Below are positions 5,267-60,009 of a stretch of 64,000 nt of DNA, in pieces. The notes under the pieces were generated by a model that worked only from the letters and a program-made list of their open reading frames with translations, was not told the DNA's origin and searched no databases. The position numbers were made by a program, and so were the translations under genes. Within the stretch, counting starts at the first letter, position 1; every line of letters begins with the position of its first letter. Origin of the DNA: Bacteroides sp. 519 (GTDB lineage: Bacteria; Bacteroidota; Bacteroidia; Bacteroidales; Bacteroidaceae); the NCBI RefSeq assembly GCF_010500955.1, contig NZ_QVMJ01000001.1:186001-250000 (forward strand), given 5' to 3'.

Positions 5267-6541
5267 ATGTCTAAGTTTAAGCCCGAAACACTTTGTGTTC
5301 AAGCCGGATGGACTCCTAAGAAAGGAGAACCCCGTGTACTTCCTATTTATCAGAGTACAACATTCAAATATGATACAAGTGAACAAATGGCGCGTTTGTT
5401 TGATCTGGAAGACAGTGGCTATTTTTATACCCGTTTGCAGAATCCAACAAACGATGCTGTAGCAGCAAAGATAGCTGCATTAGAAGGTGGAGTAGCTGCA
5501 ATGCTTACATCAAGTGGTCAGGCTGCCAACTTCTATGCCATATTTAATATATGCCAGGCAGGTGATCATTTTGTTTGCTCTTCGGCTATCTATGGTGGTA
5601 CTTTCAACCTCTTCGAGGTAACAATGAAAAAGTTGGGTATTGAAGTAACTTTCGTTAATCCGGATGCTTCGGAAGAAGAAATATCCGCAGCTTTCAAACC
5701 TAACACAAAACTTTTGTTTGGAGAAACTGTTTCTAATCCATCACTCGAAGTATTGGATATTGAAAAGTTTGCTCGCATAGCCCATAACCACGGAGTACCT
5801 TTGGTGGTTGATAACACTTTTCCAACCCCAATTAACTGCCGCCCATTTGAATGGGGAGCAGATATTGTTGTGCATTCAACCACTAAATATATGGATGGAC
5901 ATGCAACAGCAGTAGGCGGATGTATTGTTGATAGCGGTAACTTTGACTGGGATGCGCATGCCGATAAATTCCCCGGACTATGTACACCAGACGAATCTTA
6001 CCATGGCTTAACTTATACCAAAGCTTTTGGCAAAGGTGCATATATAACTAAAGCAACTGCCCAATTAATGCGCGATCTAGGAAGCATCCCCAGTCCTCAA
6101 AATTCATTCTTGTTGAATATTGGCCTCGAAACGCTTCACCTACGCATGAAACAGCATTGCTATAATGCGCAGAAAGTTGCCGAATACTTAGAAGCAAACG
6201 AAAAAGTTGCATGGGTAAATTATTGTGGACTTCCAGGAAACAAATACTACAAACTGGCGCAGAAATACATGCCAAACGGTTCGTGTGGTGTAATCTCTTT
6301 CGGTTTGAAGGGTGGTCGCGAAATTTCCATCAAATTTATGGATAAGCTTGAACTGGTAGCAATCGTTACTCACGTGGCCGATGCCCGTACCTGTGTGCTT
6401 CATCCGGCAAGTCATACCCATCGCCAACTTAGCAACGAACAGTTAATTGAAGCAGGTGTACGTCCTGACCTAATTCGTTTATCGGTTGGTATTGAAAATG
6501 TAGATGATATTATTGCTGATATTGAACAAGCGTTAAATTAG
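5267..6541 (+). CDS. metY: O-acetylhomoserine aminocarboxypropyltransferase (sulfhydrylase)
   Basis: Cytoplasmic PLP enzyme that joins O-acetylhomoserine with sulfide (or methanethiol) to give homocysteine (or methionine). The length (424 aa) and start (KPETLCVQAGW) match the Cys/Met metabolism PLP family. The PLP lysine sits in VVHSTTKYMDGH (about Lys207). SSGQAANFYAI forms the phosphate-binding turn. The extra segment in the second half (GLTYTKAFGKGAYITKA) separates MetY from the shorter gamma-synthases. It is followed by a hairpin shared with the convergent gene. Confidence 0.93.
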   Translation: MSKFKPETLCVQAGWTPKKGEPRVLPIYQSTTFKYDTSEQMARLFDLEDSGYFYTRLQNPTNDAVAAKIAALEGGVAAMLTSSGQAANFYAIFNICQAGDHFVCSSAIYGGTFNLFEVTMKKLGIEVTFVNPDASEEEISAAFKPNTKLLFGETVSNPSLEVLDIEKFARIAHNHGVPLVVDNTFPTPINCRPFEWGADIVVHSTTKYMDGHATAVGGCIVDSGNFDWDAHADKFPGLCTPDESYHGLTYTKAFGKGAYITKATAQLMRDLGSIPSPQNSFLLNIGLETLHLRMKQHCYNAQKVAEYLEANEKVAWVNYCGLPGNKYYKLAQKYMPNGSCGVISFGLKGGREISIKFMDKLELVAIVTHVADARTCVLHPASHTHRQLSNEQLIEAGVRPDLIRLSVGIENVDDIIADIEQALN

Positions 6542-8275: not shown

Positions 8276-9037
8276 CTAAAAAACTTCTAATTCAAGACCA
8301 TCGTAAGTTAAATGCATTCCATTGGGTAAAGTAGCTTCTGCTTCTTTATGTAGTCCCATATGGTGGCTCATGTGAATAAACCAGGTTTGGCCGGCGCCTA
8401 TCCTTTGGGCCACAGCTATGGCGTCATCTAATGTTTGATGAGACATGTGCGGTTCAATTCTCAGTGCATTCAATATCAATAAATCTAATCCTTCAAGATA
8501 TTGGTACGACTCTTCGGGCATGGTTAACATATCTGTAATATACGCCATATTGTTTATACGATATCCAAGGATGGGTAGTTTACCATGAATAACACGAATA
8601 GGAACTATTTTTGTGTTATTTATATAAAACACTTCACCTTCGGCAATATCTTTTAAAACCACATCGGGAACACCTGGGTATTTAATATCCGTAAAGCAAT
8701 AAGGCATTCTGTTCCTTAAGCGATTCCCAGTGTATTCTTCGGCATAAACAGTTACTTCGCCAAACCTACAAAAAGGTCTTAAATCATCTAAACCACCAAC
8801 ATGGTCATAATGTTCATGCGAAATAAGCACTCCGTCTATCTTGTTGAAATCTACGTGTAACATCTGTTCCCTGAAGTCGGGTCCGCAGTCCATTAAAAGA
8901 GTAGCATCATCTGTATAAATTAAGGCAGATGTGCGCAGTCGTTTATCTTTAGTGTCGGTAGAAGTACATACAGTACAATTGCATCCAATCTCAGGAACGC
9001 CAGTAGATGTTCCGCTACCCAATATTTTTATTTTCAT
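8276..9037 (-). CDS. MBL-fold metallo-hydrolase (PhnP-like)
   Basis: Cytoplasmic zinc hydrolase, likely a phosphodiesterase. The HEHYDH motif (VLISHEHYDHVGG) and later His/Asp residues form the metallo-beta-lactamase metal site. A CNCTVC cluster near the N-terminus (GVPEIGCNCTVC) is like the extra structural zinc site of PhnP-type enzymes. The ATG at 9037 puts the conserved MKIKILGSGTSTGVP at the N-terminus; the frame upstream of it is repeat DNA. There are no phosphonate genes nearby, so the substrate is open. Confidence 0.85.
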   Translation of the reverse strand: MKIKILGSGTSTGVPEIGCNCTVCTSTDTKDKRLRTSALIYTDDATLLMDCGPDFREQMLHVDFNKIDGVLISHEHYDHVGGLDDLRPFCRFGEVTVYAEEYTGNRLRNRMPYCFTDIKYPGVPDVVLKDIAEGEVFYINNTKIVPIRVIHGKLPILGYRINNMAYITDMLTMPEESYQYLEGLDLLILNALRIEPHMSHQTLDDAIAVAQRIGAGQTWFIHMSHHMGLHKEAEATLPNGMHLTYDGLELEVF

Positions 9038-9040
9038 GAT

Positions 9041-9181
9041 AGCAATGTGCCAATATGCCAATGTGGCAATATGCTAATTGGCTGGCGCAATAAATTTTAT
9101 AATTAAACAATTTACGATTCTCACATTGGTACATTAGTAATTGGCACATTGGCATATTCTCACATTGGCACATTAGTAATT
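9041..9181. repeat. TTGGCACATT repeats overlapping the end of murB
   Basis: Copies of a CACATTGGCA / ATTGGCACATT word occur in both orientations on either side of an AT-rich spacer (9041-9074 and 9123-9181), able to fold as a hairpin. The right-hand copies continue into the murB stop codon and supply its last residues (TNVPM), suggesting the repeat grew into the gene end. Confidence 0.6.
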
Positions 9182-10182
9182 ATATAAACTTCGGGTTTGA
9201 TTTCTATTCCAAACTGTTCTTTAACAGAAGTTCTTATAGCATCCGACAGTGCAATTATATCCTTTCCCGAGGCTTTTCCGGTATTTACCAGTACTAGCGC
9301 TTGTTTATCGTGTACCTTAGCCGGGCCGATTGATTTCCCTTTCCATCCGCTTTTCTCAATAAGCCATCCGGCAGGAATCTTTATCTCATCGGCACCTAAC
9401 TCATAGAATGGAATTTCGGGATAATCTTTTTGTAACGTAATTAGCTTTTGTTTGTTTACAATGGGGTTCATAAAAAAACTTCCGGCATTGCCCTGAATGG
9501 CAGGATCCGGCAATTTAGAACCTCTTATGTTAAATATTGCCTGACGAACGTTTTTTAATGACGTTTCCGGAAACCCGGATAGCTCTGCCCGTATTGTGCC
9601 ATAATCAAGTTTATACGATTCTTTCTTGTTCAACCGGAAACATACCGAAGTAACAATAACATCTTTCATTTCCGGTTCTTTGAAAATGCTGTATCGGTAA
9701 GCATACTGGCAGTTGTTGCGTAAATACGTTTTTTGCTCTCCTTTTATATTTACTGTTTCAACAGAATGAATAATATCTTTAACCTCTACTCCGTAAGCGC
9801 CAATGTTTTGTACGGCACTTGCACCTACTTCGCCGGGTATATTAGAGAGGTTTTCGGCTCCATACCATTTGTTTGCAACACAATGAGCTACAAAATCGTC
9901 CCAAACCACTCCCGAACCTACTTTAACCAACACATCGTTATCGTTTTCTTCAACAATGCGGATGGTGTTAATGCGCGAGTGAAGAATGGTTCCTTCAAAG
10001 TTATTGACGAATAACAGATTGCTGCCTCCACCAATATGTAAATAGGGTAGGGTAATCTGGTTGGTGCGGATCAGCTCGTATAAATCCTCTTCGGTATCGT
10101 ATTCAATAAAACGGGTGGCTTTTACATCAATGCCAAAGGTGTTGTGTGATAATAGAGAATAATTATCAAAGTATTGTATCAT
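9160..10182 (-). CDS. murB: UDP-N-acetylenolpyruvoylglucosamine reductase
   Basis: Cytoplasmic FAD enzyme of peptidoglycan synthesis that reduces UDP-GlcNAc-enolpyruvate to UDP-MurNAc with NADPH. FAD-binding features are [17 protein letters not shown] and [18 protein letters not shown]. Catalytic segments YRYSIF and GSFFMNP and the C-terminal [13 protein letters not shown] match the E. coli-type (type I) enzyme, and 340 aa is the usual size. It starts 17 bases after the stop of the lipoprotein gene, so the two are likely cotranscribed. The extreme C-terminus is encoded by repeat DNA. Confidence 0.95.
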
Positions 10183-10199
10183 GTCTGGAATATCTAATG

Positions 10200-11081
10200 T
10201 TAATTGCTGGTGTCTTCAAATCGGAACAACTCCCATCTTCCTTGTTTCTTTCTGAACGAAAGTGTATTTAGAAATCCATTTCCTACACCTTTCAGGTAAA
10301 CAATTTTGGTAGGCGACTTATCATCGTTTTTTTGTCCGTAGTTGATGTTCGAAAACATTTCGGTGGGTAGTTCGGGGCGTAGGGTAAACCACTGATTCAA
10401 ATCCATGGTTGTTTCAAGTATAGCAAAGTCATCATCCGGATCGGTTGTAATAAACTTCAGCGGATTACAGATGTGTTTTGTTTGAAAGGTGCTATCGGTA
10501 GAGAATTTGAGGAAGAAGTCAGCAAAGTCTTTCTTCTCTTCTTCTAAAGAATGCAGGTTAACAGCTTCGAGTATCCATCTTCCGTTAATGCACTCAAAGT
10601 AGTACTTCTTTAAGAGATGCGATTTCAAATATATCCATTCTATCTGAATGGAGCTTGGGTCCACCTCATCAAGCAGGTCGAAATCTTCTTCTTTATCAAA
10701 CAATAATGTGTAATGGTTGTATTTATAGAATAAACTATCGTGCTGCCATTCGCTCTTCTCTAGCTTCAGAGAAGCGTTTTCTTTGTAATAGGGTAGGGGG
10801 AATACAATTCGCTTAAGCTGAAATTTCTTGTCCAATGCAAACTGATAAATAAAATCGTCAAAGTATTCGTCTCTCACTACTTCCGGTTCAGGATCTTCTA
10901 CTTCTTCTAAAGTGTCTTTGAGAATAGTAGGTATGGTGTCGTTAACAACTATCATTGTATCTGTTTGTACAGCGTTGACAGATGTCTTCTTTTTATTTTC
11001 GCACGAAAATAAAAAGATTCCAAGCAAGAGTAGACTAATATGTACCTTAAACAATTTCAATCTTGAGTTAACTCCTTCCAT
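10200..11081 (-). CDS. DUF4348-type lipoprotein
   Basis: Predicted lipoprotein: a hydrophobic stretch and lipobox (GIFLFSC, Cys about 27) are followed by a low-complexity linker rich in D, E, T and V. The folded part starts near [20 protein letters not shown] and continues to the end; I place it in the Bacteroidetes DUF4348 family from memory of the pattern. The role is unknown. Its stop lies 17 bases before murB, pointing to a two-gene unit. Confidence 0.75.
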
Positions 11082-11225
11082 TCTTTTAGGTTGGCAAAGT
11101 TAGACATTTTTTTTTCTGTATTCAACCAAAAAGTTATTGTTTATTCCAACAAAAATGGTGTCCTTTGCACTAAAATTGAGTTCTTGTTAAGAACTTAGTA
11201 CTTTTAAACTTAAAACTTAAATCCT

Positions 11226-12413
11226 ATGTATGGTAAAATGAAGGAATACCTCAGCAATACTCTTGCTGAAATTAAAGAAGCTGGTTTATACAAAGAAGAA
11301 AGACTGATTGAAAGTCCTCAGCAAGCAGTCATTAAAGTAAATGGAAAAGATGTATTGAATTTCTGTGCTAATAATTACCTTGGATTATCAAATAATCCGC
11401 GTTTGATTAAAGCCGCCCAGGAAATGATGGATCGCCGGGGCTATGGAATGTCGTCGGTACGCTTTATATGTGGTACACAAGATATTCATAAAGAACTGGA
11501 AGCTGCTATAGCCGAATATTTCCAAACAGAAGATACCATATTATATGCCGCATGTTTTGATGCAAACGGTGGAGTATTTGAACCTCTCTTTACAGATGAA
11601 GATGCAATTATTTCCGACTCTCTGAATCATGCCTCGATTATTGATGGTGTACGTTTGTGTAAAGCAAAACGTTACAGATACGCCAATGCAGATATGGGCG
11701 AACTGGAGAAATGTTTGCAGGAAGTACAGGCACAACGTTTCCGTATTATTGTTACCGACGGTGTGTTCTCTATGGACGGAAATGTAGCACCGATGGATAA
11801 AATATGCGATCTGGCCGAAAAATATGATGCCCTTGTAATGGTAGACGAATCGCACTCGGCTGGTGTAGTAGGTGCCACTGGTCATGGAGTAAGTGAATTA
11901 TTCAATACATACGATCGTGTTGATCTCTATACCGGTACACTTGGTAAAGCTTTTGGTGGTGCATTAGGTGGCTTTACTACTGGTAAAAAAGAAATTATTG
12001 ACTTACTGCGTCAACGCAGCCGTCCTTATTTGTTCTCTAACTCGTTGGCACCTGGCATTATCGGAGCAAGTATTGAAGTATTCAATATGTTGAAGGAGAG
12101 CAATGAACTACATGATAAACTTGTTGAAAATGTAACTTATTTCAGAGATAAGATGCTGGCAGCCGGATTCGATATTAAACCTACACAAAGTGCTATTTGT
12201 GCAGTTATGCTATACGATGCAAAACTATCGCAGGTTTTTGCTGCCCGGATGCAGGAAGAAGGAATATACGTAACCGGATTCTATTATCCTGTAGTACCAC
12301 AAGGTCAGGCACGTATCCGTGTGCAACTCTCTGCCGGACACGAAAAGGCTCACTTGGATAAGTGTATTGAAGCCTTTATTAAAGTAGGTAAAGAACTCGA
12401 AGTACTAAAATAG
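11226..12413 (+). CDS. kbl: Glycine C-acetyltransferase (2-amino-3-ketobutyrate CoA ligase)
   Basis: Cytoplasmic PLP enzyme of the alpha-oxoamine synthase family; cleaves 2-amino-3-ketobutyrate with CoA to glycine and acetyl-CoA in threonine degradation. MYGKMKEYL at the start, NFCANNYLGLSNNP, VDESHSAGVVGATGHG and the PLP lysine in TLGKAFGGALGG (Lys241) are diagnostic. The length (395 aa) is standard. No threonine dehydrogenase gene is next to it in this window. The following gene starts 21 bases after its stop. Confidence 0.94.
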   Translation: MYGKMKEYLSNTLAEIKEAGLYKEERLIESPQQAVIKVNGKDVLNFCANNYLGLSNNPRLIKAAQEMMDRRGYGMSSVRFICGTQDIHKELEAAIAEYFQTEDTILYAACFDANGGVFEPLFTDEDAIISDSLNHASIIDGVRLCKAKRYRYANADMGELEKCLQEVQAQRFRIIVTDGVFSMDGNVAPMDKICDLAEKYDALVMVDESHSAGVVGATGHGVSELFNTYDRVDLYTGTLGKAFGGALGGFTTGKKEIIDLLRQRSRPYLFSNSLAPGIIGASIEVFNMLKESNELHDKLVENVTYFRDKMLAAGFDIKPTQSAICAVMLYDAKLSQVFAARMQEEGIYVTGFYYPVVPQGQARIRVQLSAGHEKAHLDKCIEAFIKVGKELEVLK

Positions 12414-12434
12414 AATTGCTCAAACTAATCCGAT

Positions 12435-12845
12435 ATGGAAGAATTAACCTTGACAACTCCTACACTTTTGTTTTCGGCTGTTTCGCTGATACTGTTAGCT
12501 TACACCAATCGTTTTTTATCGTACGCTCAATTGGTGCGTACCTTGAAAGACCGGTATGTCGAAGATCCGTCTGAGGTAACTGTAGGACAGATTCTTAATC
12601 TACGGAAAAGAGTCTATCTAACCCGGACAATGCAGATATTAGGAATTGGAAGCCTGTTTCTATGTGTTGTTACAATGTTTTTTATTTATATCGGATTACA
12701 GTTGCTATCTGTATACGTATTTGGAGTAGCGTTACTTTTATTAATAGCATCTCTGGGAGTATCAATTTGGGAAATACAAATATCTACTCATTCTTTGGAT
12801 TTGTATCTGGGAGATTTAGAGGGAAAAGTAGGTAAAGTAAAGTGA
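12435..12845 (+). CDS. DUF2721 family membrane protein
   Basis: A 136-residue protein with three hydrophobic segments (about residues 9-24, 71-90 and 93-112) and a charged cytoplasmic loop, the layout of DUF2721 proteins, whose function is unknown. It overlaps or abuts the next gene, so the two are translationally linked and probably belong to the kbl transcript. Confidence 0.75.
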   Translation: MEELTLTTPTLLFSAVSLILLAYTNRFLSYAQLVRTLKDRYVEDPSEVTVGQILNLRKRVYLTRTMQILGIGSLFLCVVTMFFIYIGLQLLSVYVFGVALLLLIASLGVSIWEIQISTHSLDLYLGDLEGKVGKVK

Positions 12846-17676: not shown

Positions 17677-18987
17677 TTACATATCATTCATAGATAAGCC
17701 TCTTAATTCAACCTTATATTTTGCAAGTTCTTTTTTGATTGAATCGGCTTTCGCCTGAAGTAAAGTCATGTCAATTTTCTTGGGGTTACGCTTTACCTCG
17801 GCAACAATAGCCGTTTTATCCAAATCATTCAAGGCAATCAGGTCTATCTCATTTTCGCCTTTATTGTCCCAATAGCTACCGATAGCGGTTATCCTCTCCT
17901 CTTCCGCCATTTTAGCCCGAAAGTATTTTTCCAAAGTGAAACCGCTATATTGCTCATAGTTCTTATTAATAAACTCACGAAGCAAGTCATATTTCCCCAT
18001 TTCAATCAATGACTGATTCGGATAAATAAATCGAAACCAAAAACGAAGGTAGTTGTCATTCAAACTCCAACGAGCTTTTCGGCTTTCCGGCTTCGAGAAC
18101 ATGGGCTTGTTCTTTGTGATAAGGGAGTATTCTTTTTCTAAATTGACCAAATATGCCCCGGTATTTTTCCCAATAATAGAATCTATTTCACTTTGGGTTG
18201 TTTTCCCGGAAGCGATTAACTGTAAGATAGAAAAATAAGTTCCATACTCTTTTCCAAACTCAGAGATAAGCAATTCTTTGCCTTCCCCGATAAAGGGAGA
18301 ATCAGGACGTGTAACCATATCCAGTATCTTATCCTTTGTTACAGCTCCGGCTTCCATAAGAAGGTCAATATACTTGGGAATGCCACCCGTCAGCATATAG
18401 AGACACAGAAGATCTTCCGAATTATATTTCGGATTATAATCGTTCAGGATTTCTTTTATTACACTAACGGCGAAAGGTTGCTGTGTTATTTTTGAGGTAA
18501 GTCGCCCGAATAACGGTTCTTTCCTGTTCTCAAAAATTTTCATCATCATCGAATAGATAGAACCGGAAGCAATAAAGTTGATCTTAGTCTTATCCTTGTA
18601 CTGATCCCAAAGATTCTGAACATCGCTGAATATGGACGAATTTACATTATCAAACTCTTGAAACTCATCTATGATAAGCGTATAATGTTCCTTCGTGGCA
18701 AAAATCAATAACTGCTCAAAAAGGTCTTTGAATCGGGTAATCGAGCCGAATATTTGCAATCCTAAAACATCTGCTGCATCTTTCTGAAACTGTTCGCAAA
18801 GAAGTGGTTCGCTTTTACGGGAAACAAACAGATAAAGATACTTCTGTCCCTTTACAGATTCAAGTAAAAGGGAGGTCTTGCCGATACGACGACGACCAAC
18901 CATAACCGTAAAACAGGAACTCCTCTTCGATTGCTCCAATGTACGGGCTAATATCTCTAACTCCGCTGTTCTGTTATAAAACTTCAT
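17677..18987 (-). CDS. AAA ATPase with C-terminal DUF234 nuclease-like domain
   Basis: Archaeal-type STAND-related ATPase. Walker A is GRRRIGKT (31-38) and Walker B is LIIDEFQEF, followed by a sensor segment (INFIASGSIYSMM), a winged helix in the middle and a C-terminal DUF234 domain with NEIDLIALNDLDKTAIVAEVK, a PD-(D/E)XK-like core. Such proteins are frequent on Bacteroidales mobile DNA; a toxin or defence role is guessed but unproved. It has its own TATTTTTG box (19028-19035) upstream. Confidence 0.82.
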   Translation of the reverse strand: MKFYNRTAELEILARTLEQSKRSSCFTVMVGRRRIGKTSLLLESVKGQKYLYLFVSRKSEPLLCEQFQKDAADVLGLQIFGSITRFKDLFEQLLIFATKEHYTLIIDEFQEFDNVNSSIFSDVQNLWDQYKDKTKINFIASGSIYSMMMKIFENRKEPLFGRLTSKITQQPFAVSVIKEILNDYNPKYNSEDLLCLYMLTGGIPKYIDLLMEAGAVTKDKILDMVTRPDSPFIGEGKELLISEFGKEYGTYFSILQLIASGKTTQSEIDSIIGKNTGAYLVNLEKEYSLITKNKPMFSKPESRKARWSLNDNYLRFWFRFIYPNQSLIEMGKYDLLREFINKNYEQYSGFTLEKYFRAKMAEEERITAIGSYWDNKGENEIDLIALNDLDKTAIVAEVKRNPKKIDMTLLQAKADSIKKELAKYKVELRGLSMNDM

Positions 18988-27097: not shown

Positions 27098-28045
27098 TCA
27101 ATATTTCATTTCAAATTCTCTGTGAGGCATTAGCGATATTAGCCTATCAAATAGAAGTGTTTTTTGTATGTAGGTTTCTTCCTGCAATATTCGCTTTCCT
27201 TTTTTTATTTCAACCAATCCGAAGTGATAAAGAAATCGCTCAAATGTACGCAAACAATAGCAATTGAAGCAATAATCCAGCACTGTACCATAAGTAGGCT
27301 GAACCGTTTCCAATAACATAGGAAAAGCCTTAAAATATTTCTCTGCATAATATCTCTCAGAACGCTCTGTATTCCCGTATATACTAAGCAGAATCAATGA
27401 AAAACCAAATCCAAGTTGCCCAATCGTTCCAGATTGCACGTCATCAGAATAATTATCAAAATAATGCCAGTTAAATTTCTGGCAAAAACCTTTGAAAATA
27501 GAATCGAACAGTTTCGAATCATCAGCGATAATTTTTGTTCCGGTCGCTGTCAAGGATAAAATCCCTTTGCGTTTTTTAATTATACCGGACGCTTCGGCTA
27601 ATAATCGAGCCAAATGAACAGGCGTACAATCCATCTCCTTGCCTAATTTTGATATAGCATTTTCAATCATTTCATCAGGAGCACCCAAAGGATAAAGTTC
27701 CTGAACAATTTTAATCGGCAAATATCCGGCAGTAGTCAACTTTATTTGCCCATTTTGAGAGATAATTTCCGCAAATCGCTTCACCTGACGTAAAATGGGT
27801 ATTTGAGAATATTCATGCGAACTAAGCGGATTGAAACATATTGGAGAATCTGCATCAAATGTAAAATGCAGAATTTTGTGCATCTCAAGGGACGAGTAAC
27901 CCTCAAAATCTGTTCTTGGAGTATTATTTTGAGTGCGAAAGAATTCTCCCATTTTTTGGTTTAAATCTTCCATTGTTGGAGTTATGCCCTTAGCCTGCAT
28001 TCGGTCTATATACTCCTGCAAATATTTAGTTGCTTCCTGTTTCAT
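27098..28045 (-). CDS. Unknown protein, last gene of the S1-repeat operon
   Basis: 315 residues, soluble. I do not recognise the family. A helical N-terminus (ATKYLQEYIDRMQAKG) is followed by a possible winged helix (QIKLTTAGYLPIKIVQELY, and later KRKGILSLTATG), suggesting a nucleic-acid-binding or regulatory part; the C-terminal third is aromatic and helical. The gene lies 51 bases after the S1-repeat gene and shares its low G+C content, so it is read as the third gene of the operon. It converges on the terminator at 26979. Confidence 0.7.
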   Translation of the reverse strand: MKQEATKYLQEYIDRMQAKGITPTMEDLNQKMGEFFRTQNNTPRTDFEGYSSLEMHKILHFTFDADSPICFNPLSSHEYSQIPILRQVKRFAEIISQNGQIKLTTAGYLPIKIVQELYPLGAPDEMIENAISKLGKEMDCTPVHLARLLAEASGIIKKRKGILSLTATGTKIIADDSKLFDSIFKGFCQKFNWHYFDNYSDDVQSGTIGQLGFGFSLILLSIYGNTERSERYYAEKYFKAFPMLLETVQPTYGTVLDYCFNCYCLRTFERFLYHFGLVEIKKGKRILQEETYIQKTLLFDRLISLMPHREFEMKY

Positions 28046-28096
28046 GCGCTTATAATTGTTGCTTCTGTGAAAATATAACTAAATAAAATTCTCTCT

Positions 28097-30652
28097 TTAT
28101 TCACATATAGTAAATTCCCCTAAAGAAGCTGAGATTAAAGTAACCTCAATCATCGCTCCTACTTCAATGTTTTTATCCGGTAAGTTTGTCCAGCCTTCTA
28201 TTTCATCAGAATAAAAATATCCCTTCGAATGAGTTTCCTTGACATATTTTACATCAATTTTTTCTCCATAATTGGGATAGATTGATTGTTCAAGATACTC
28301 TTTTCTTGTTAATGCTACAGTCTTTTTATTTTTATTAATTTCAGAAATAAAAAAATTGAAAGTATCACCGACTGGCAGATAGAATTTCAAATCCTCACTA
28401 TCAATAAAAGCAAAATTTGAAATTTCTCTTTTTAGTATAAATGCTTGAACTATATATTCTCCATCAGTCAATTCAACATGTACGCTATTTTCAAAATATC
28501 TGATAATCTGACCTTTTACAGCCTGATTTTCGTCTACGTTCTTATACCAATCGTCAAATTGATGTTCAAATTGACGTTTAATACTAAATCTTACATTGTT
28601 TCTTTCAGCATCAAAGGTTATTGGAATAACTCTGATAGTATCTTTTTTATTGAATAGATTTTCAAAATTTCCAATAATCCCCCAACTAATCTCCGACCAC
28701 CAAATGAACCCTGTATTATCATTATCAATATATTTTACCGCAATCCCTTTATCAGGAACAATATAAGCAACCTCAACTTCTACAATTTGGTTTGCATTTT
28801 TCTCGAAATATTCCAATTCTGGTGTTTTTGAAAGACGTTTAATTGAAACATCAATCCTCTTTCTTTCATGATTTATTGATGTAACACAAACTTCAATTTC
28901 TTCTTCAATACTAAACTGTGATGTAATACATTCTTTTATATCCCAAGATATTTCTTGTTTAACAAGCCAGCATTCAACTCCTTCACTTAATTCTCCAATA
29001 ATAGTAAATTCGTTTATTTGTTTTATTAAGATAGAGATGGTATCTCCAATTTGCATTTGTTGAATGGCAACATCATCCCATGGATTTGGTAGATTTTCTA
29101 TAGAACCAATAAAACTTGAAGAGAGAGAGCTGTATTTTTCAACTACAACATTTAAAATATCCCCGATTGAATACTTTTGAGTTAAGTCTAAAAAACGACT
29201 ATACGTAGCATTATATTTCGGGATATAAATCCATGATTTTAAATTTGAGTTTGACACTTTGAGCCCAGTTTGAAGCCCTTGTTTATCTGTTTGAATTTTC
29301 TCAACCGTACAAGGATATACTTTATCTTCATTTAAAACAGCTTCAATATAATGCTTTGGGTCTGATTCGGTATCTTTACTAGACAGGATTATATGCTGCT
29401 TATCAGTATCTAATTCAATTATAGAAAGAAATAGTTCATCTTCTGAATTTAATACTTTCCGAGCGTCCTTTATTTCAATGTCAGAGAGTTGTTTGTTAGG
29501 AATGTCAAATTTTAGACCAAAAGCATTAACAACAACATGGTCTTTGTAAACACTATCAATAATTGCAGGTACATTAGTACTCTCCTCATAGTGTTTCTTT
29601 AGATTTTCCCAAGCAAGATAGGCAATCGTTGCTTTATTGGGTCTTAATGAATAGCAAGTTACAATATATTCATTCCCTTCGGGAGATGCACATTTGATTT
29701 TGGGATTCCGGTTAATTTGATCAAATCCTTTGGTAGCTGTTAAAATTCCAACAACATTGGACGCTCTTTCATAGCCATTGCCTCCTCTTGCTAAGATATA
29801 TACTGAATTAAAGTTTTCAGTAGCATAATAATCTGCCCATTTTATATAAGCTGATGCTCCATATTTCTCCCACGTCTCATCTTTTCCAACTAAAATTACT
29901 CCTATTTTGAAATTTTTTGAGAGATATTTTAGATTAGTTCGCTCGTCAAACTCTCTAGTTGCTAATTCTTTAAACCATAAAAGAAGATTATTTGCTTCAA
30001 TCCTATATTCAGAACTTGGTGGAAGAGTGTCTATTAGTTCGCCATAGAAATGAAATTCGGGTAACAATATATTTAAAAATAAACCCCTGTCATTGGTCGG
30101 TACAAGTGTTTCAAATTCTTGTATTGTTGAATTCTCAAATTCATTAAGTTTTTTTCTAAATGTAGTTAAAACCTCTTTTCTATTATTCCTCAGAATTATA
30201 TGAGTTGTAAGTAAATCTATTGCTTCTGATGATGATTTTTCCAAATAGTCTTTAGCCTTTGCTATTAGTGCTGTCTGAACAAAACTTAACGTAGCATTAT
30301 AAAAATTCAGATTGTGATCTTTTTTATCAAAACTCAGACAAACAATGGCCTCATTTTCTCTAAGTATATTTTTTTTGTTACTATCTGTTACCCACTCAAT
30401 TTTACAACGAGGAAGTATCGGGTCTTCAAAATTCTTGTTATAGTCTTGAATTATTGAGTTCATAGTTCCTTCATACTCGCTTTCTACACTTAGTTTCCGA
30501 ACTTTTTTCCCACTCCAGCCAATAAATTTCAGAATATCGCCCAACACGATTTTTCCCTTTGCCCATACTTCTCCAGCAAGATATATCCATGCAAAAGCAA
30601 TCAATAATGGTGTCACTCCATAGATCAAAATTGATTTTATTAACTCATTCAT
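28097..30652 (-). CDS. Membrane-anchored protein with multiple S1-like repeats
   Basis: 851 residues. One N-terminal transmembrane helix (about 8-28) anchors it, with the rest likely cytoplasmic. Residues about 60-350 form an unrecognised domain (GVILVGKDETWEKYG, then VYILARGGNGYERAS). From about 365 to 845 come roughly five repeats of S1/OB type, each beginning with a beta-strand pair and ending in INxxxKxxxLSxK-like text (for example INHERKRIDVSIKRL and INKNKKTVALTRKEYL). S1 domains bind RNA, so an RNA-sensing role at the membrane is inferred. Very AT-rich; imported cargo. Confidence 0.75.
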   Translation of the reverse strand: MNELIKSILIYGVTPLLIAFAWIYLAGEVWAKGKIVLGDILKFIGWSGKKVRKLSVESEYEGTMNSIIQDYNKNFEDPILPRCKIEWVTDSNKKNILRENEAIVCLSFDKKDHNLNFYNATLSFVQTALIAKAKDYLEKSSSEAIDLLTTHIILRNNRKEVLTTFRKKLNEFENSTIQEFETLVPTNDRGLFLNILLPEFHFYGELIDTLPPSSEYRIEANNLLLWFKELATREFDERTNLKYLSKNFKIGVILVGKDETWEKYGASAYIKWADYYATENFNSVYILARGGNGYERASNVVGILTATKGFDQINRNPKIKCASPEGNEYIVTCYSLRPNKATIAYLAWENLKKHYEESTNVPAIIDSVYKDHVVVNAFGLKFDIPNKQLSDIEIKDARKVLNSEDELFLSIIELDTDKQHIILSSKDTESDPKHYIEAVLNEDKVYPCTVEKIQTDKQGLQTGLKVSNSNLKSWIYIPKYNATYSRFLDLTQKYSIGDILNVVVEKYSSLSSSFIGSIENLPNPWDDVAIQQMQIGDTISILIKQINEFTIIGELSEGVECWLVKQEISWDIKECITSQFSIEEEIEVCVTSINHERKRIDVSIKRLSKTPELEYFEKNANQIVEVEVAYIVPDKGIAVKYIDNDNTGFIWWSEISWGIIGNFENLFNKKDTIRVIPITFDAERNNVRFSIKRQFEHQFDDWYKNVDENQAVKGQIIRYFENSVHVELTDGEYIVQAFILKREISNFAFIDSEDLKFYLPVGDTFNFFISEINKNKKTVALTRKEYLEQSIYPNYGEKIDVKYVKETHSKGYFYSDEIEGWTNLPDKNIEVGAMIEVTLISASLGEFTICE

Positions 30653-30656
30653 TTGC

Positions 30657-30881
30657 TTACTGATTATGATTATACTCTTCTACACAAGTTGGGCTATCAC
30701 AAACATAATCGTAGGAATCCCCTTTTCTTGGAATTATTAACTGAATATTTTTTAAGCTAATCAACTTTGAACATAATAAGCAAAACCTCTCACTTTGTTC
30801 GATTTTATCAAGTTCATTAACTGATTGAAGAAAGTTTTGCAAGTCTTCTTTAAATATTGCTGGTATTTTTTTCTTTTCCAT
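30657..30881 (-). CDS. Small Cys-rich protein heading the S1-repeat operon
   Basis: 74 residues. A helical N-terminus (MEKKKIPAIFKEDLQNFL) is followed by CLLCSKL and then VCDSPTC, so two Cys pairs about 30 residues apart could form a zinc ribbon. The ATG at 30881 is chosen because the promoter lies just upstream of it (30908-30938); a longer frame from 30950 would overlap that promoter. It ends four bases before the S1-repeat gene starts, so the two are tightly coupled. Confidence 0.75.
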   Translation of the reverse strand: MEKKKIPAIFKEDLQNFLQSVNELDKIEQSERFCLLCSKLISLKNIQLIIPRKGDSYDYVCDSPTCVEEYNHNQ

Positions 30882-30907
30882 GATGATAAAAGCACTTATA
30901 ATCTCCG

Positions 30908-30938
30908 CAAAGATACCCATAAAAAAACACCTGACAAA
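30908..30938 (-). promoter_or_regulatory. Near-perfect Bacteroidetes promoter for the cargo operon
   Basis: On the minus strand TTTG (30935-30938), 19 bases, then TATCTTTG (30908-30915): both boxes and spacing match the -33/-7 consensus. It gives the three-gene operon its own expression, separate from the tra genes. Confidence 0.75.
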
Positions 30939-31007
30939 ATCGCTTGCCAAGTGTTTTTCAGAGAGTTACTCCAAGTTGTTTATCCATCAACCATTTCATT
31001 CTTCTGC

Positions 31008-49296: not shown

Positions 49297-51423
49297 CTAA
49301 ATATATTTCTGAAATTCGGTTACGAACTCCTGTTCAATCCTTGAAAATCTGTTTTGGGATGGAACAAAACCACTCAACTGAGTAAGCGCTTCGTCAATAT
49401 TAGGCGAAATCTGTATCGCTTTGCCTATTTTTTGAGAAATTTGTATAGGTAGTCCGTATTCATCTAATGGAACAACATAAGGGGCTATGAAATAACATTC
49501 TACAAAACTGGCAAAATATGAATAATCACAAGCCTTGAGATTTTGCTTTTTGAAAATATCATTTGCAATGCTGCACAAACTCATTAAGTAGCGTGGAAAT
49601 TGAAAATTTATCCAATGTCGTTGAATATCAAAAGACAACTCTATAGCTTCATTTATTTTGTCTTGTGTATTACAGCCTGCGGTATTAGCTGCAATGAATT
49701 TTTTAATACTCCCAGCCTCTCTAAATTGATTAATTCTAAAATGCAGTTGTTTTCCAGAACTTACTCCATAAGTCATTTTCTTAGACGCTATTAAATAATC
49801 CCAAATAAGCAAGCATGCCAATTTAAGTTGATTGTTATCAGGATATTGACTCCATTTCAAAAGCGGATATATTTTGTTGATGTTTTTCTGTATGACAGAT
49901 GCTAACTGTATTTGTTTGTCTAAATCTATATATGAATTTTTCTTTAGCGTTTCCTTTGACAGGATATCTTGATTAAAGTATTTTTGCAATTTCTGTTTTG
50001 AGCTTTCTTTCAAATCGTTTTCATCAATATTAATCAATAGCTTCTCAGGAACATCATCATTCTGAGAGAATATCGGAAAATCAACTAATGGTAGTTCTGC
50101 TGCTGGTGGCTCATGAAATAGATATATATTTCCAATAAAATGCGAAAACATTCTGCCGGAACGTCCACAAATATTATTAAAGGTAAAGTAGTCGAACTTA
50201 GTCCGAGCTATCTTATTGTCGTATATTATAACATTTTTTGCTTTCGTATTGACTCCCTCAATGAGGGTTGAGGTACATATGAGATATTTAATCTTGCCCT
50301 CATTAAATAGTTTAACGCATTTTTGTGCAATTGCGCGAGGAACTCTACCATGATGAATCCCTATACCTTGCTCTAAACAATTTGGGAGAATCCATTGAGA
50401 ATGATAATTGCTTTTTAGCCAGTCCGCCAACTCCTTATTCATACCTGTTTCCTCAAATTTTCCACTATTTAGAAACGCATTAGCGACTTTATTTGCACTT
50501 GCTGGAGATTGACAGAATATTAGTGTTGGCTCGTCCATAGATGAACTTATTTCAATCAAACGGCTGATCGAATCCTCTCCATTTTTGACCTTAACTGAAT
50601 GTCGTTCAGAAACGACCGTTTTATAATCTGTCCGAATGAATTTGTATTTGACATTATCTAATAAGGCTGTAGTCACTTGTTCTATATTGGGGCCTAAAAG
50701 ATAAAATTGCGCTCCCTTTTTTACCAACGTATAAAAGACCTGATTCAAAACATGGCATCTTTCTTCATCGGATTTTTGAGGACTTAACTTATAGAACTCA
50801 TCTATTACAAAAAAGTCCACATCAATTTGAGGTATAATTTCTATCGCTCGTTCCTGCGTAAGTATAAAGATATTTTTTTTTAGCAACGATTGACTTGGGT
50901 GCGTAATTATTTTATACGAGTCCTTGAATTTAGATAATCTTTTTCGAGTTTCGTCAATTAGAGCTATCGTGGGAACAATGATAATTATATTTGAATGAAC
51001 TTGCGAAGCAATAACTGAATCTATTATAAGGCTTTTCCCAAAACTTGTAGGCGCACTCAAAACAATGTTTTCCCCTCGTAAAAGGGCGTAATACACCTCC
51101 GCCTGAGCGTGATGAAAAACTATATGCTCGTTAAATCCGGTAGGACGGTGTACTTCATAAGCGATAGCATCTTTAAAGGATAAATTGTCTTCGTCCATAT
51201 AGGGAAAAAGCCCAACTTGTCTTGTTAGTCCGCTAATCATAGACTCCAAACCTTGAAACTCATTTATCCTTGCTAATAAACGCAATATGAACTCCTGTCC
51301 TACAGTCTGGTTAATTGCGACAAGAGCCGCAACCTGCTTTATTATTTGAAACTTATCTACATCAGCAGGAAATTTCCGCCTTAAGATATTTCGTAGTTCT
51401 TGCGGAGTTATAAATTCTGCCAT
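49297..51423 (-). CDS. hamB: Hachiman helicase HamB
   Basis: 708-residue superfamily 2 helicase. Walker A is APTSFGKSLIID, motif II is VIDEFYKL (DEFY in place of DEAH), motif V is TSTLIEGVNTKAKN and motif VI is NICGRSGRM. Its start overlaps hamA by 16 bases. In Hachiman, HamB senses damaged or intermediate DNA and releases the HamA nuclease, killing or stalling infected cells. Base composition is AT-rich compared with the ICE backbone. Confidence 0.88.
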   Translation of the reverse strand: MAEFITPQELRNILRRKFPADVDKFQIIKQVAALVAINQTVGQEFILRLLARINEFQGLESMISGLTRQVGLFPYMDEDNLSFKDAIAYEVHRPTGFNEHIVFHHAQAEVYYALLRGENIVLSAPTSFGKSLIIDSVIASQVHSNIIIIVPTIALIDETRKRLSKFKDSYKIITHPSQSLLKKNIFILTQERAIEIIPQIDVDFFVIDEFYKLSPQKSDEERCHVLNQVFYTLVKKGAQFYLLGPNIEQVTTALLDNVKYKFIRTDYKTVVSERHSVKVKNGEDSISRLIEISSSMDEPTLIFCQSPASANKVANAFLNSGKFEETGMNKELADWLKSNYHSQWILPNCLEQGIGIHHGRVPRAIAQKCVKLFNEGKIKYLICTSTLIEGVNTKAKNVIIYDNKIARTKFDYFTFNNICGRSGRMFSHFIGNIYLFHEPPAAELPLVDFPIFSQNDDVPEKLLINIDENDLKESSKQKLQKYFNQDILSKETLKKNSYIDLDKQIQLASVIQKNINKIYPLLKWSQYPDNNQLKLACLLIWDYLIASKKMTYGVSSGKQLHFRINQFREAGSIKKFIAANTAGCNTQDKINEAIELSFDIQRHWINFQFPRYLMSLCSIANDIFKKQNLKACDYSYFASFVECYFIAPYVVPLDEYGLPIQISQKIGKAIQISPNIDEALTQLSGFVPSQNRFSRIEQEFVTEFQKYI

Positions 51424-52244
51424 GTTTTTAACTTAGTTTCTAATGATTTCATCAATTCCTCTTTCGTGTTCAATGGTAACAAAAATAGATGTACCGTTAA
51501 TGGGAAGTCGCCTAATCTATCACAAAATCTTTTGTGGAATTTTGTAAATTCTTCTGAAATCTCGGCTGTATATTCTGCACTTTTTTGGTCGTGCTTTGCC
51601 AGTACCGAGGAATCGTATGTGAGCAAAACGGGTATGCAAGTATTCGAGAAAACATCATCTAAAGATGTGTTTGGGTTAAGTAGTGTCTTAAGTCTTTGTG
51701 CATGAGGCCACGAGTTATCTATCTTATTCGTAATAGCAACAAACTCATTTCTTACATACCGAGTTTCAGCATGTTGCTGTAATTCCGTAACAACGTGTGA
51801 TATGGCATTTGAAATGTCATTGTAAAATTTAACTTCCCCCAACCACAGTTCTAAAGAATCATCCAAATCCACTATGTGAACAGCATCAAATCCTTTGACT
51901 GTTTCATTTGGCCCGTCCTTGTAGTATATTTTGCTTATCGCGGGAATTGTATTGTGCGTTTCTCGTATGATAGCATGAAGTAAAAGCTCTCCAAATTCTC
52001 CTCGATTCTCAAATTTTTTAGACTGATATATACTGGCGACCACCTGCCTGATTTTGGCAACTGCATTTTCTCCCGTGAGATTATGAAATTCGGTATGAGT
52101 TAAAGCAAATTCCGGTAAATATTCAAACAAGTAATTTACTAACTGATCTTTCCTCCAAATACGATTTTCAAATCCAACACACATCCCATGCAAGTCAGGA
52201 AGCTGATCTTCTTTGTGAACAATGATATTAAAAAATGGAGTCAT
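51408..52244 (-). CDS. hamA: Hachiman nuclease HamA (DUF1837)
   Basis: 278 residues of the DUF1837 type. A PD-(D/E)XK nuclease core is visible: Glu in RGEFGELLLH (about 83-86), Asp120 in KGFDAVHI and Glu137-x-Lys139 in WLGEVKFY. HamA degrades DNA once HamB is activated. It is the first gene of the pair, with a good -7 box 32 bases upstream. The combination and the overlap with a helicase identify Hachiman with fair certainty. Confidence 0.88.
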   Translation of the reverse strand: MTPFFNIIVHKEDQLPDLHGMCVGFENRIWRKDQLVNYLFEYLPEFALTHTEFHNLTGENAVAKIRQVVASIYQSKKFENRGEFGELLLHAIIRETHNTIPAISKIYYKDGPNETVKGFDAVHIVDLDDSLELWLGEVKFYNDISNAISHVVTELQQHAETRYVRNEFVAITNKIDNSWPHAQRLKTLLNPNTSLDDVFSNTCIPVLLTYDSSVLAKHDQKSAEYTAEISEEFTKFHKRFCDRLGDFPLTVHLFLLPLNTKEELMKSLETKLKTWQNL

Positions 52245-56450: not shown

Positions 56451-58553
56451 TTATGACTCAAAATTCATTTTACTTTTAGCTTCTACCTTGTCGCTGATAT
56501 TCTTGATGGTTTCTTTATAATATTCGGTATTGTAATAAGTCATTATCATTGATGGAAATAGTTTTTTAAACTCGTCTTGACTTGTAGCTGGAAATTTTGA
56601 CTTCAATCGGAAAATTGTATAGAAAAAATATTCTACAAATTCATCACTCTTACCTTCAGCTACAAATCGAGTAAATAACAATAGCCAATACTCGCCGTAA
56701 TGGTCAATAAGGTACCCTAAATCAAACAAATCTCTTAATGCCAGAGCTAATTCATTGTAGAATTGTGTTACAAGACTGACTTTAAGCCACAATTCTCGTG
56801 TCATCAATTTATTTGATAGTAATGCCGAAGAGATATCGTACATCCGCTCGTTTTCATTTTCAAATAGGTATAATAGGAATTTAGCGGCAAATGTATTTTC
56901 TGCATAACAATCATAGTAATAGTTCGTCAGTATTTTTTTCGTAGTAAATACATCAATACTACAGTTTAGTAGTTTCTGACTGAATGTAGGCAAAACACCA
57001 TGTATATTGCTTAAATTCAGCGAATTATTTCTTGTAATTAAGTGTAGCAATTCAATAGGACAGTTAGGGCAAAATAAAGCTAATGCAGCAGCATAGTCAT
57101 CAGCAAGAATACGTTCTTTTATTCTTTCTTTTTCATCATCTCTTAAATAAGTCCAGTTTGCCGTACAAACAGATATCAGATAATTAGTAGTGTATTTATT
57201 ATCAAGTTTAAGGATGTCAGAAACAATATCTTTTCGTGCGTTGGGTACATTGCGGGTTATGTCAAAAGCTAAAGACAAGGCTACTAACTGGTTTTCTCTT
57301 TCAAATGAGCAAGATTCAATCTGTAGTTTATAAAAACATAAAATGCTTTCAAATATTGTAATATATTCTTCCGGAGTTACTTTTTCTGCAAAATCCATTA
57401 AAGTTCTAGAATAACGTCCGCTCATCAAATATGACGCAACTCGCGGATCCATATTGGATATAAATATCGGAAAAACTTCTTTCCAGAGATTCCACAATTC
57501 TAATTGTTGCTCTTCATTAAAATCTCTCCAATGAATATCTACCGAACCATAATCTATAGTAAAATGTAACATTAATCTACCACATCTGAGACAATTGTTT
57601 TTTTGCTGGAAAATGTCGAATATGAGATTCTTAAATATCACCTTTATAGACTCATCAACTTTGTGAAAATTATTAATACAGAGTTCGACAACTTTATACG
57701 ATGTATCAGGAAGAAGGTACTGTTTATTATCTTTCAACAGTCCCACTATGTATACATTGTCTATTTTATTTAGAAAATGGAAGAGATATTTGATTGCTGT
57801 AGTTCTTAAGAACTCTTCTTCTGCATGAATAGCTTTCTCAAATAAATTTTGTTCAAAATCAACTTCATTGTCTCTATGATGCAACAGTAGTTGATTTAGA
57901 AGCTTGGATGAGATAAGGGCATTTCTGTTAATGACACTAATACCTTGAATATATTCTTCGGGAGTTAATTTTCTTTGTTGAAATTCATGTGTTAAAAAAG
58001 AGTATTCGTCATAATAGGGCGTTTCCTCATTCCAATAAATATATAATGAAGAATCATCAGCAATTAGCTCTGTTAATTCTTTTGTCTCTTCAGGTGACAT
58101 ATCGAACTCTCTTTCGATAAAATATTGTAGAATTGAATCTCTAACTTTCGGAAATAAAGGTTTATGTAAATAATATATAGGAATGTCTATAGCTGCATGA
58201 TAGAGGCTATCGTCTGACAACTCTAAGTATCTGATGTTTTTAGAGCATATAAATGCTGCGCTAGGATTTAAACAATTAATGGAATTATACAAGTTGCGAA
58301 TGAGAACCTTTCGTCTCCGATCATTCAGATTACTTATCATATAAATACACACTTCCTGATGGTAAGGATGGGTAAATCTAATCCCCTCATCATTAACCTG
58401 TATAACATTCTGTTGCTCAAGCCATAAAATTTGTTTTTTTATATCTACGTCAATTTCTATTAGGTTTTCGTATTGCGGAATTTTAGGTTCATAAAACAGA
58501 CTGGATGTTCTGAAATTTTTCTCTTCTCGCTCCTCAATTGAAGGATATTTCAT
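56451..58553 (-). CDS. Large helical protein, apparent C-terminal half of the caspase-NTPase
   Basis: 700 residues. The start looks like the middle of a winged helix (KKQILWLEQQNVIQVNDEGI, then RFTHPYHQEVCIYM), the segment that normally follows a STAND NTPase core. The remaining 600 residues are helical, repeat-like text without clear TPR consensus, as expected for the ligand-sensing end. It overlaps the caspase gene by 20 bases in another frame. It is either a coupled separate subunit or the second half of one gene split by a frameshift. Confidence 0.75.
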   Translation of the reverse strand: MKYPSIEEREEKNFRTSSLFYEPKIPQYENLIEIDVDIKKQILWLEQQNVIQVNDEGIRFTHPYHQEVCIYMISNLNDRRRKVLIRNLYNSINCLNPSAAFICSKNIRYLELSDDSLYHAAIDIPIYYLHKPLFPKVRDSILQYFIEREFDMSPEETKELTELIADDSSLYIYWNEETPYYDEYSFLTHEFQQRKLTPEEYIQGISVINRNALISSKLLNQLLLHHRDNEVDFEQNLFEKAIHAEEEFLRTTAIKYLFHFLNKIDNVYIVGLLKDNKQYLLPDTSYKVVELCINNFHKVDESIKVIFKNLIFDIFQQKNNCLRCGRLMLHFTIDYGSVDIHWRDFNEEQQLELWNLWKEVFPIFISNMDPRVASYLMSGRYSRTLMDFAEKVTPEEYITIFESILCFYKLQIESCSFERENQLVALSLAFDITRNVPNARKDIVSDILKLDNKYTTNYLISVCTANWTYLRDDEKERIKERILADDYAAALALFCPNCPIELLHLITRNNSLNLSNIHGVLPTFSQKLLNCSIDVFTTKKILTNYYYDCYAENTFAAKFLLYLFENENERMYDISSALLSNKLMTRELWLKVSLVTQFYNELALALRDLFDLGYLIDHYGEYWLLLFTRFVAEGKSDEFVEYFFYTIFRLKSKFPATSQDEFKKLFPSMIMTYYNTEYYKETIKNISDKVEAKSKMNFES

Positions 58554-60009
58554 TATGGAGTATAAAAGCTATATCATTATTGGTTACACGATCTATGGTA
58601 TTACAGGTTAATGCCATAACACAACAGATATCCCATATTTCCGGTTTATTATTTAAATATATCCCAGCTTGCTGCTTTGCATCGATTTGTGATAGGTGAA
58701 CAATATCTAGCAACGCTTTTTGTTCTATATCATCTTTAGACATAGTACTGACGGTTTTCAAATTACCTATGTTGAGGATGCTCTCCGAAGAATTTAAATA
58801 ATCTATATATTCTGTTATTTTCTCATCGCTGAGCCCCATCAGAGAAGAATAAATTTCCCAAGCTTGTATCAACACATCTTTTTCTGAGTATATTTCCTGC
58901 CAATCGACAGAGGCTTCTTTGCAGTTAATGAGATTACTGTGCCCAAAGATTTCAAGTATAATATCTTTTCGAGAGGTTATTATCAAAAGGTTTGTAATAG
59001 GTTTATTTGAAATAATATCCGAAACAATTTTATGTCGGTTGGAATCCGAAAATGTTTTCCATGAACCATATGGATCATCTAATAGACAGACACGAGGATG
59101 ATCCGTAAGAGATAAGAAATTCCTAGCAGTATCCAAATTATTTGTTTGCAAAAAATCATAACCTTTCCGCCATAATTTTTTTGCCAAAGAAAGGGATAAG
59201 TATGTTTTACCGACCTTTGTATCACCGCAAAGAAGGAGAGTTCCTTCTTTTAACAATTTATTAATCAAGTGTGTTTCATCACTTCGTTCCATGTAAAATG
59301 GATCCACAAATGGAGCTTTACAATGAGGAGGTGCTTTTCTCCATAGAGCAAAAGGTTGCACATCCTTTTGGGCTCCCTGAATACTAATGCGTTGTGCTAT
59401 ACCTTTTAACTGAAATATATGATTTATATATTCATATATTCTACTAATCGACAATTGATTATTCGTGTAGAGTGAATGATCATCTAAAGCTTCGCAAAAT
59501 GCACTGGTAAATAAGCTACTATTAGGATAAGCGAATGCTGAAGTTGTGGGCGTTGATGCAAAGATGCCGAAAAAACCCAAAGAATCATCATCTGCATAAC
59601 CTCCATATTCCGTTATAATTTCTTCTCCGCTTTCGCATGCATCAACTATTATACATGAACTTTTAGGAGACAAAGCAATAATCCACTCTGTCACTTCTTT
59701 AATTCCCAGATCTTCAAGATCATTGAGACACAAAAAGGATTCATGCGTTGCATTATGATAGCCATGCCCACTGAAATAAAATAGAATATTTTCAATATCT
59801 TCTACAATTAGTTGGACAAATATATCTTCTACTTTTTGTTTCGCTCCTCTTTGGGGTTCACCAGCACTTATCAACAAAGACATATATCTATCATAGATAC
59901 AATATTCCCTCAATTTACTCTCCAAAAGATTAATATCTTTATTTGGCGCAGTTAATTTCTCATTTGGATCTGCATAATTTTCAGATGCTATTAGTATAGC
60001 TACATTCAT
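58534..60009 (-). CDS. Caspase-like protease fused to nSTAND3-type NTPase
   Basis: 491 residues. The caspase-like (C14) domain spans about 1-220, with catalytic His82 in FSGHGYH and Cys125 in VDACESG. The NTPase follows: Walker A is GDTKVGKTY (262-270) and Walker B is CLLDDPYG (308-315), the latter characteristic of nSTAND3. The protein stops just after the NTPase (HNEISFN). Architectures of this kind are predicted to sense infection and kill the cell by proteolysis. AT-rich, no signal peptide, and its stop overlaps the next start. Confidence 0.8.
   Translation of the reverse strand: MNVAILIASENYADPNEKLTAPNKDINLLESKLREYCIYDRYMSLLISAGEPQRGAKQKVEDIFVQLIVEDIENILFYFSGHGYHNATHESFLCLNDLEDLGIKEVTEWIIALSPKSSCIIVDACESGEEIITEYGGYADDDSLGFFGIFASTPTTSAFAYPNSSLFTSAFCEALDDHSLYTNNQLSISRIYEYINHIFQLKGIAQRISIQGAQKDVQPFALWRKAPPHCKAPFVDPFYMERSDETHLINKLLKEGTLLLCGDTKVGKTYLSLSLAKKLWRKGYDFLQTNNLDTARNFLSLTDHPRVCLLDDPYGSWKTFSDSNRHKIVSDIISNKPITNLLIITSRKDIILEIFGHSNLINCKEASVDWQEIYSEKDVLIQAWEIYSSLMGLSDEKITEYIDYLNSSESILNIGNLKTVSTMSKDDIEQKALLDIVHLSQIDAKQQAGIYLNNKPEIWDICCVMALTCNTIDRVTNNDIAFILHNEISFN

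Follow-up and report, generated by a model that had tools for sequence, protein, structure and literature searches.

The gene pair and its surroundings

A stretch of 64,000 nucleotides from Bacteroides sp. 519 (contig NZ_QVMJ01000001.1; G000:C94:186001-250000 in our numbering), hereafter the window, carries three minus-strand open reading frames (ORFs) of 74, 851 and 315 amino acids (aa), which a first-pass annotation of the DNA had read as one cargo operon of an integrative and conjugative element (ICE). The subject here is the pair formed by the first two, a small protein with four cysteines (Cys4) and a large protein with an array of S1-like domains. Together they are a candidate defence system that has no name and whose architecture is new. 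All three ORFs are present at the positions originally given, and the description of an AT-rich block inside G+C-richer ICE surroundings agrees with the composition: G+C is 0.30-0.36 in the block (0.30-0.32 by kilobase for the pair and 0.36 for the kilobase with most of the 315-aa gene) versus 0.43-0.50 over 5 kb of flanking DNA at each end. An Rfam search at the locus returned nothing at E 0.1. In window coordinates the genes and protein segments are as follows.

30657..30881, minus strand: small partner gene, 74 aa, C-x2-C ... C-x4-C, with a homologue upstream of the S1 gene elsewhere
28097..30652, minus strand: large gene, 851 aa, encoding a hydrophobic N-terminus, then an N-domain that includes a predicted Alba fold, then six OB/S1-like modules
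30569..30631, minus strand: residues 8-28 of the large protein, hydrophobic helix, predicted membrane anchor (from hydropathy)
29933..30517, minus strand: residues 46-240, mixed alpha/beta part of the conserved N-domain (confident model, many invariant columns)
29633..29932, minus strand: residues 241-340, predicted Alba-like domain (from the predicted fold)
28100..29584, minus strand: residues 357-851, six OB/S1-like modules forming a ribosomal protein S1-like array (from profiles and model)
27098..28045, minus strand: 315-aa gene, a slot neighbour outside the conserved unit, without counterpart at the other loci

A conserved two-gene unit

The conserved unit consists of two genes, the small Cys4 gene and the large S1 gene. 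When an alignment of 33 members (A1) was used as query against genome contigs, eight loci were retrieved, and in every one of them the S1 gene is immediately preceded by a homologue of the 74-aa gene. A ninth, L050, comes from another family of the same order and has 25% identity; its 81-aa Cys4 protein, which BLAST had missed, is encoded by a gene that overlaps the start of the S1 gene. The two genes are therefore adjacent in 10/10 loci including the window (9/9 of the others), with the distance from the small stop to the large start ranging from an 8 nt overlap to a 5 nt gap in all ten.

Two of these loci, L009 and L010, come from metagenome-assembled genomes (MAGs) labelled with different phyla, Gemmatimonadetes and Spartobacteria, yet are near-identical in sequence; they are possibly one locus, with at least one MAG probably mis-binned. 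Counted once, they leave the pair at 8/8 of the other loci.

C34, C37, C61 and C66 of the small protein are invariant across the nine sequences of alignment A5, from which L010 was omitted as near-identical to L009; A8, L14, L18, N45, I50 and P51 are invariant as well. The cysteine pairs noticed on first reading thus hold in all nine, and the small zinc partner then proposed is a Cys4 protein strictly paired with the S1 gene and predicted to bind one zinc. Both genes are under strong purifying selection: the ratio of nonsynonymous to synonymous substitution (dN/dS) is ~0.05-0.08 for the large gene and ~0.01-0.04 for the small one, as estimated from three locus pairs with dS up to ~1.25, the remaining pairs being at or near saturation. 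The large genes of an Algoriphagus locus (L003) and a Bacteroidales MAG (L004) differ at only 4% of nonsynonymous sites, which suggests that the pair spreads horizontally.

The 315-aa gene does not belong to this unit. It was not found at any of the nine other pair loci (there was one stray 21-residue match, E 0.15), and it occurs in 5/157 genus genomes searched, namely Bacteroides sp. 519 and four others, one of them partial; the four regions fetched around these homologues (L043-L046) have no S1 pair among their ORFs. The three-gene operon is rejected because this gene is missing at the other loci and occurs without the pair in four genomes, and what is conserved in order is the pair, with the 315-aa gene travelling independently. 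Its product matches nothing in PADLOC or NCBIfam, and its Pfam matches are all below threshold; for the possible winged helix of the first-pass annotation, the one hint among them is HTH_Tnp_Tc5 (E 0.11).

Architecture of the large protein

The N-terminal transmembrane helix claimed for the 851-aa protein corresponds to a hydrophobic segment that is conserved across long homologues and is predicted to act as an anchor. The maximum Kyte-Doolittle value over 19 residues is 2.07, starting at residue 8, and a 19-mer with hydropathy >=1.6 lies near the N-terminus in 110 of the 111 listed homologues of >=835 aa (111 among 120 listed matches). The N-domain that follows is modelled with confidence (pLDDT 91 over residues 46-358), and its alignment across the family has many invariant columns, including polar residues. 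Residues 241-340 are predicted to adopt the beta-alpha-beta-alpha-beta-beta fold of Alba-like domains, a fold that occurs in RNA- and DNA-binding proteins.

The protein belongs to the S1 domain family: PF00575 matches in three stretches, with a whole-protein E of 1.8e-17 and 63.9 bits against a gathering score of 22. By the strand pattern as read by eye, the predicted model reads as six OB-like modules rather than the "about five S1/OB-like repeats" first described; the S1 domains themselves stand. Given the predicted OB modules and Alba fold, the protein very probably binds RNA. A match of residues 61-114 to the BsuBI/PstI nuclease family PF06616 (E 0.051; 13.4 bits, where the cut-off is 27) was not accepted.

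Defence genes near the pair

Known defence genes recur near the pair in distant hosts, which is the pattern of a defence island. Recognised defence or DNA-modification genes lie within ~5 kb at 6/9 other loci, where the neighbours of L009 and L010 were unscanned (6/8 if these two are counted once); since PADLOC was run on neighbouring and control ORFs picked by eye, not randomly, this figure is a strong indication and not a calibrated statistic. The systems involved differ from locus to locus. L004 has MzaB to MzaE; L005 has a type I restriction-modification (RM) system together with a kinase and an ATPase, for which the best models are mad6 and PD-T4-6 (kinase) and mad3 and AriA (ATPase). At L006 the pair stands between a type IIG RM gene, 140 bp upstream of it, and a gene for a YhcG nuclease, 17 bp downstream, and at L008 a type I RM system is found upstream and a type IV-like nuclease downstream. 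L007 is accompanied by a reverse transcriptase (RT_III-A) and a phosphoribosyltransferase, with an RteC homologue nearby. At L050 (G1069) the pair lies between N6 and D12 methyltransferase genes, and HsdR- and YhcG-like ORFs were recognised by eye. In the control, ten chosen ORFs around four 315-aa homologues, nine had no match and a 1122-aa helicase-like ORF had weak ones. The antiphage role that the first-pass annotation had offered as a possibility is, on these recurrent neighbours, a likely one, and the pair is best described as a candidate.

Distribution and relatives without the S1 array

Few genomes carry the pair, and its occurrence is patchy. The S1 gene occurs in 1/158 genus genomes, that of Bacteroides sp. 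519 alone. No plasmid or phage record covers 80% of the query (20/26 plasmid and 5/5 phage records among the matches listed), the listed plasmid and phage matches being mostly of 20-24% identity and over the S1 part, and no match to the pair was found in viral contigs.

The N-domain has relatives of its own. UF08_11 of Marinitoga camini virus 1 is the only phage record to match it (tblastn E 2e-7); this 336-aa protein has a hydrophobic N-terminus and an N-domain (i-Evalue 5.4e-26 in a three-sequence search) and no S1 array, and its gene lies upstream of a terminase gene (L011 4509-5519). No additional relatives of UF08_11 were found among the viral contigs, the protein collection held only UF08_11 itself, and tblastn, in a search of the kind in which BLAST also missed the small protein of L050, found no small Cys4 homologue in phages. 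An N-domain profile search returned eight proteins, including P0126, a metagenomic protein of 363 aa that resembles UF08_11 by eye and that its source names ribosomal protein S1; it is possibly cut short, because the longest contig is 1448 bases. Two further proteins, P0122 and P0123, appear to be truncated members of the family. A search of a viral structure library gave a 346-aa siphovirus protein with a TM score of 0.79 normalised to its own length. Together, UF08_11, P0126 and the siphovirus protein indicate that the anchored N-domain can stand alone, and the S1 array looks like an addition to it. That the phage copies of the N-domain act as antagonists is speculation.

The cargo slot

The window has TraM and relaxase family matches (C94:220254-220700 and 232028-232348), for which reason the element is taken to be conjugative; further TraM matches lie on the same contig at 287 kb and 337 kb. 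The early assignment of the block to an ICE cargo slot is upheld by these genes and by the recurrence of the slot flanks around other cargo. The flanks co-occur in G449 (L039) and in a second ICE of Bacteroides sp. 519 (L040). The former slot (5597-6508) holds a single gene, whose 303-aa product matches nothing in Pfam or PADLOC. The latter (8351-12809; G000:C94 ~328-333 kb) holds five, encoding a 200-aa protein (weak Hp2), an NTPase (NACHT just below the cut-off), a cytidylyltransferase-like protein, a PlsY-like glycerol-3-phosphate acyltransferase and another acyltransferase, possibly an NTPase system with lipid enzymes. The slot is empty in G475 (L019 1314-2380), which is more distant: homologues of the two flanking genes are 125 bp apart there, without cargo between them. 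A family-wide scan for the right flank found two copies in Bacteroides sp. 519 and a partial match in G447 only.

Two features mark the edge of the slot in the window.

30908..30938, minus strand: promoter-like match TTTG-N19-TATCTTTG, which belongs to the edge of the ICE slot
30917..30958, minus strand: terminator-like hairpin, likewise at the edge, which overlaps the upstream box of the promoter (from folding of slices)

The near-perfect promoter of the first-pass annotation is indeed matched at 30938-30908, but it is not private to the cargo, since it recurs in two sister ICEs. The TATxTTTGC box is kept in 3/3 cargo-filled slots, and the hairpin slices fold in all three (z -5.25 to -5.41, with 0/200 shuffles as stable). 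Because the same hairpin and box precede different cargo, the promoter-like match may well serve the slot as a fixed intake promoter.

Other defence genes, known and candidate, are found in the window. A Hachiman system (49297-52244, minus strand), 18.6 kb away, consists of HamB (708 aa, PADLOC E 4.5e-250) and HamA (278 aa, E 1.3e-124) and is probably in the same ICE as the pair. A 436-aa ATPase at 17677-18987 (minus strand) matches the candidate defence model PDC-S27 (E 3.3e-51). At 56451-60009 (minus strand) a 491-aa ORF and a 700-aa partner give only a weak PDC-S73 match in PADLOC; the motifs GHGYHN and DACESG of the 491-aa ORF we take to be caspase-like, and an NTPase part is likely, so this is a possible caspase/NTPase defence module.

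Relation to known systems

Among known proteins the array most resembles ribosomal protein bS1 (rpsA). The tandem OB/S1 modules are shared, residues 340-790 align to S1 family models, and both profile and structure model of the array match bS1. Unlike bS1, the 851-aa protein has a predicted anchor, an Alba-containing N-domain, a linked Cys4 partner and a patchy distribution. Against the seven best NCBIfam S1 models it scores 82.8-127.3 bits, where the cut-offs are 368-918; as a ribosomal S1 equivalog it is rejected, with 127.3 bits against 624 for PRK00087.1 and 113.9 against 577 for rpsA.

TOTE conflict systems contain a helicase and a primase. Their S1/CSD-like domain 1 (PF22708) is matched weakly by 2/49 family members (best E 0.01), whereas the pair has neither helicase nor primase. 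The fold shared by Alba, IF3-C and Rpp20-Rpp25 is predicted for residues 241-340, but it is embedded in a larger domain and has no sequence-profile match. UF08_11 shares the hydrophobic N-terminal segment and the homologous N-domain with the large protein, and differs in its shorter length and in having no S1 array and no small Cys4 homologue detected by tblastn in phages. The TERNS3 MoxR-vWA systems, a proposed conflict system with OST-HTH plus S1 effectors, resemble the large protein in their multiple S1 domains (PMC8195603); they differ in that MoxR, vWA and OST-HTH were not recognised in a Pfam scan of the pair itself. In agreement with the first reading, which could name no known system, none of the three proteins matched a family of PADLOC-DB 2.0.0 (2023) at E up to 1. 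The literature gave no description of the pair, most subscription journals being outside the scope of the search.

Proposed function and alternatives

A defence or anti-mobile-element role for the pair is likely. Within it, the reading we prefer, at a probability of roughly 0.4, is that the pair is a defence module that holds invader RNA at the inner membrane, away from the ribosome. The anchor would hold the S1-like array at the membrane, where the S1 and Alba parts would bind invader RNA, for example phage transcripts or leader regions recognised by S1; the captured RNA would be kept from ribosomes and its translation arrested. The Cys4 protein would be an obligate partner that loads, licenses or restrains the large protein. 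Capture is the simplest mechanism because no effector domain was recognised, and the capture-and-block step on invader RNA itself is put forward tentatively. According to a proposal for Bacteroidetes, start codons are chosen there through the binding of S1 to unstructured leaders (PMC3155529), and an S1 mimic would therefore compete directly. The most elaborate version, S1-decoy immunity in which a tethered S1-Alba protein with a zinc-partner switch seizes phage mRNA through S1 leader signals and some phages answer with free N-domains, is unlikely to be right as a whole.

Several observations weigh against RNA capture as a defence. The Alba call rests on the predicted fold: Foldseek gave no match at E <=0.001, no Alba protein was among five PDB profile matches at E up to 10 (weak unrelated matches only), and Alba was not among the best 25 of 48 Pfam families in the profile listing. 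Neither a catalytic nor a known effector domain was recognised, and any block or killing would thus proceed without a recognised part. The family extends to a Treponema MAG and to the MAGs named Gemmatimonadetes and Spartobacteria, and an argument from S1 function specific to Bacteroidota is therefore insufficient. The choice of ORFs by eye, noted above, counts here as well. L003 had no defence gene in the two ORFs scanned. PADLOC on five sister-slot proteins gave nothing for four and a weak Hp2 match for one (E 2.7e-4), for which reason the slot is taken as one for cargo in general and not clearly for defence. These last two points would suit an ordinary accessory pair for RNA metabolism (stress, RNA decay) that lies near defence genes through shared mobility only. 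Such a pair is nonetheless quite improbable in view of the defence or DNA-modification genes at 6/9 loci, in distant hosts and with differing systems, and of the 315-aa control, where only 1/10 neighbours gave weak matches.

The first-pass annotation had inferred a membrane-bound RNA sensor; RNA capture, we infer, would fit the anatomy at least as well. In its abortive form, in which S1/Alba would detect phage or damaged RNA, the anchor and residues 46-240 of the N-domain would serve as membrane effector and the Cys4 protein as brake, the sensor is rather unlikely. It is consistent with the hydrophobic N-terminus of nearly all listed long homologues, with the high conservation and invariant polar residues of residues 46-240, with relatives that have the N-domain and no S1 array, and with a tight two-gene layout that would be compatible with toxin-antitoxin pairs; a single predicted transmembrane helix and the lack of any recognised pore, nuclease or NTPase fold argue the other way. 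The fact that the array most resembles ribosomal S1, together with carriage on a conjugative element in the window and the RteC homologue near L007, would also suit a membrane-bound S1 substitute that keeps element or host mRNAs translated under stress or infection, countering shutoff and maintaining the element. The recurrent defence neighbours and scores far below the rpsA cut-offs make this improbable.

Implications

Beyond the first-pass annotation, the analysis adds a predicted Alba domain, a strictly conserved partner, recurrent defence neighbours and N-domain relatives without S1. Even without a mechanism, the strict pairing of the small and large genes provides an annotation marker for an unnamed system with at least 111 homologues of >=835 aa. 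If the defence role is true, the pair would be an immune module without a recognised nuclease, NTPase or pore, built of RNA-binding folds on a membrane anchor, and would point to immunity by RNA capture. It would also open the part that S1 plays in phage translation to direct tests, above all in Bacteroidota, for which the start-site proposal was made (PMC3155529).

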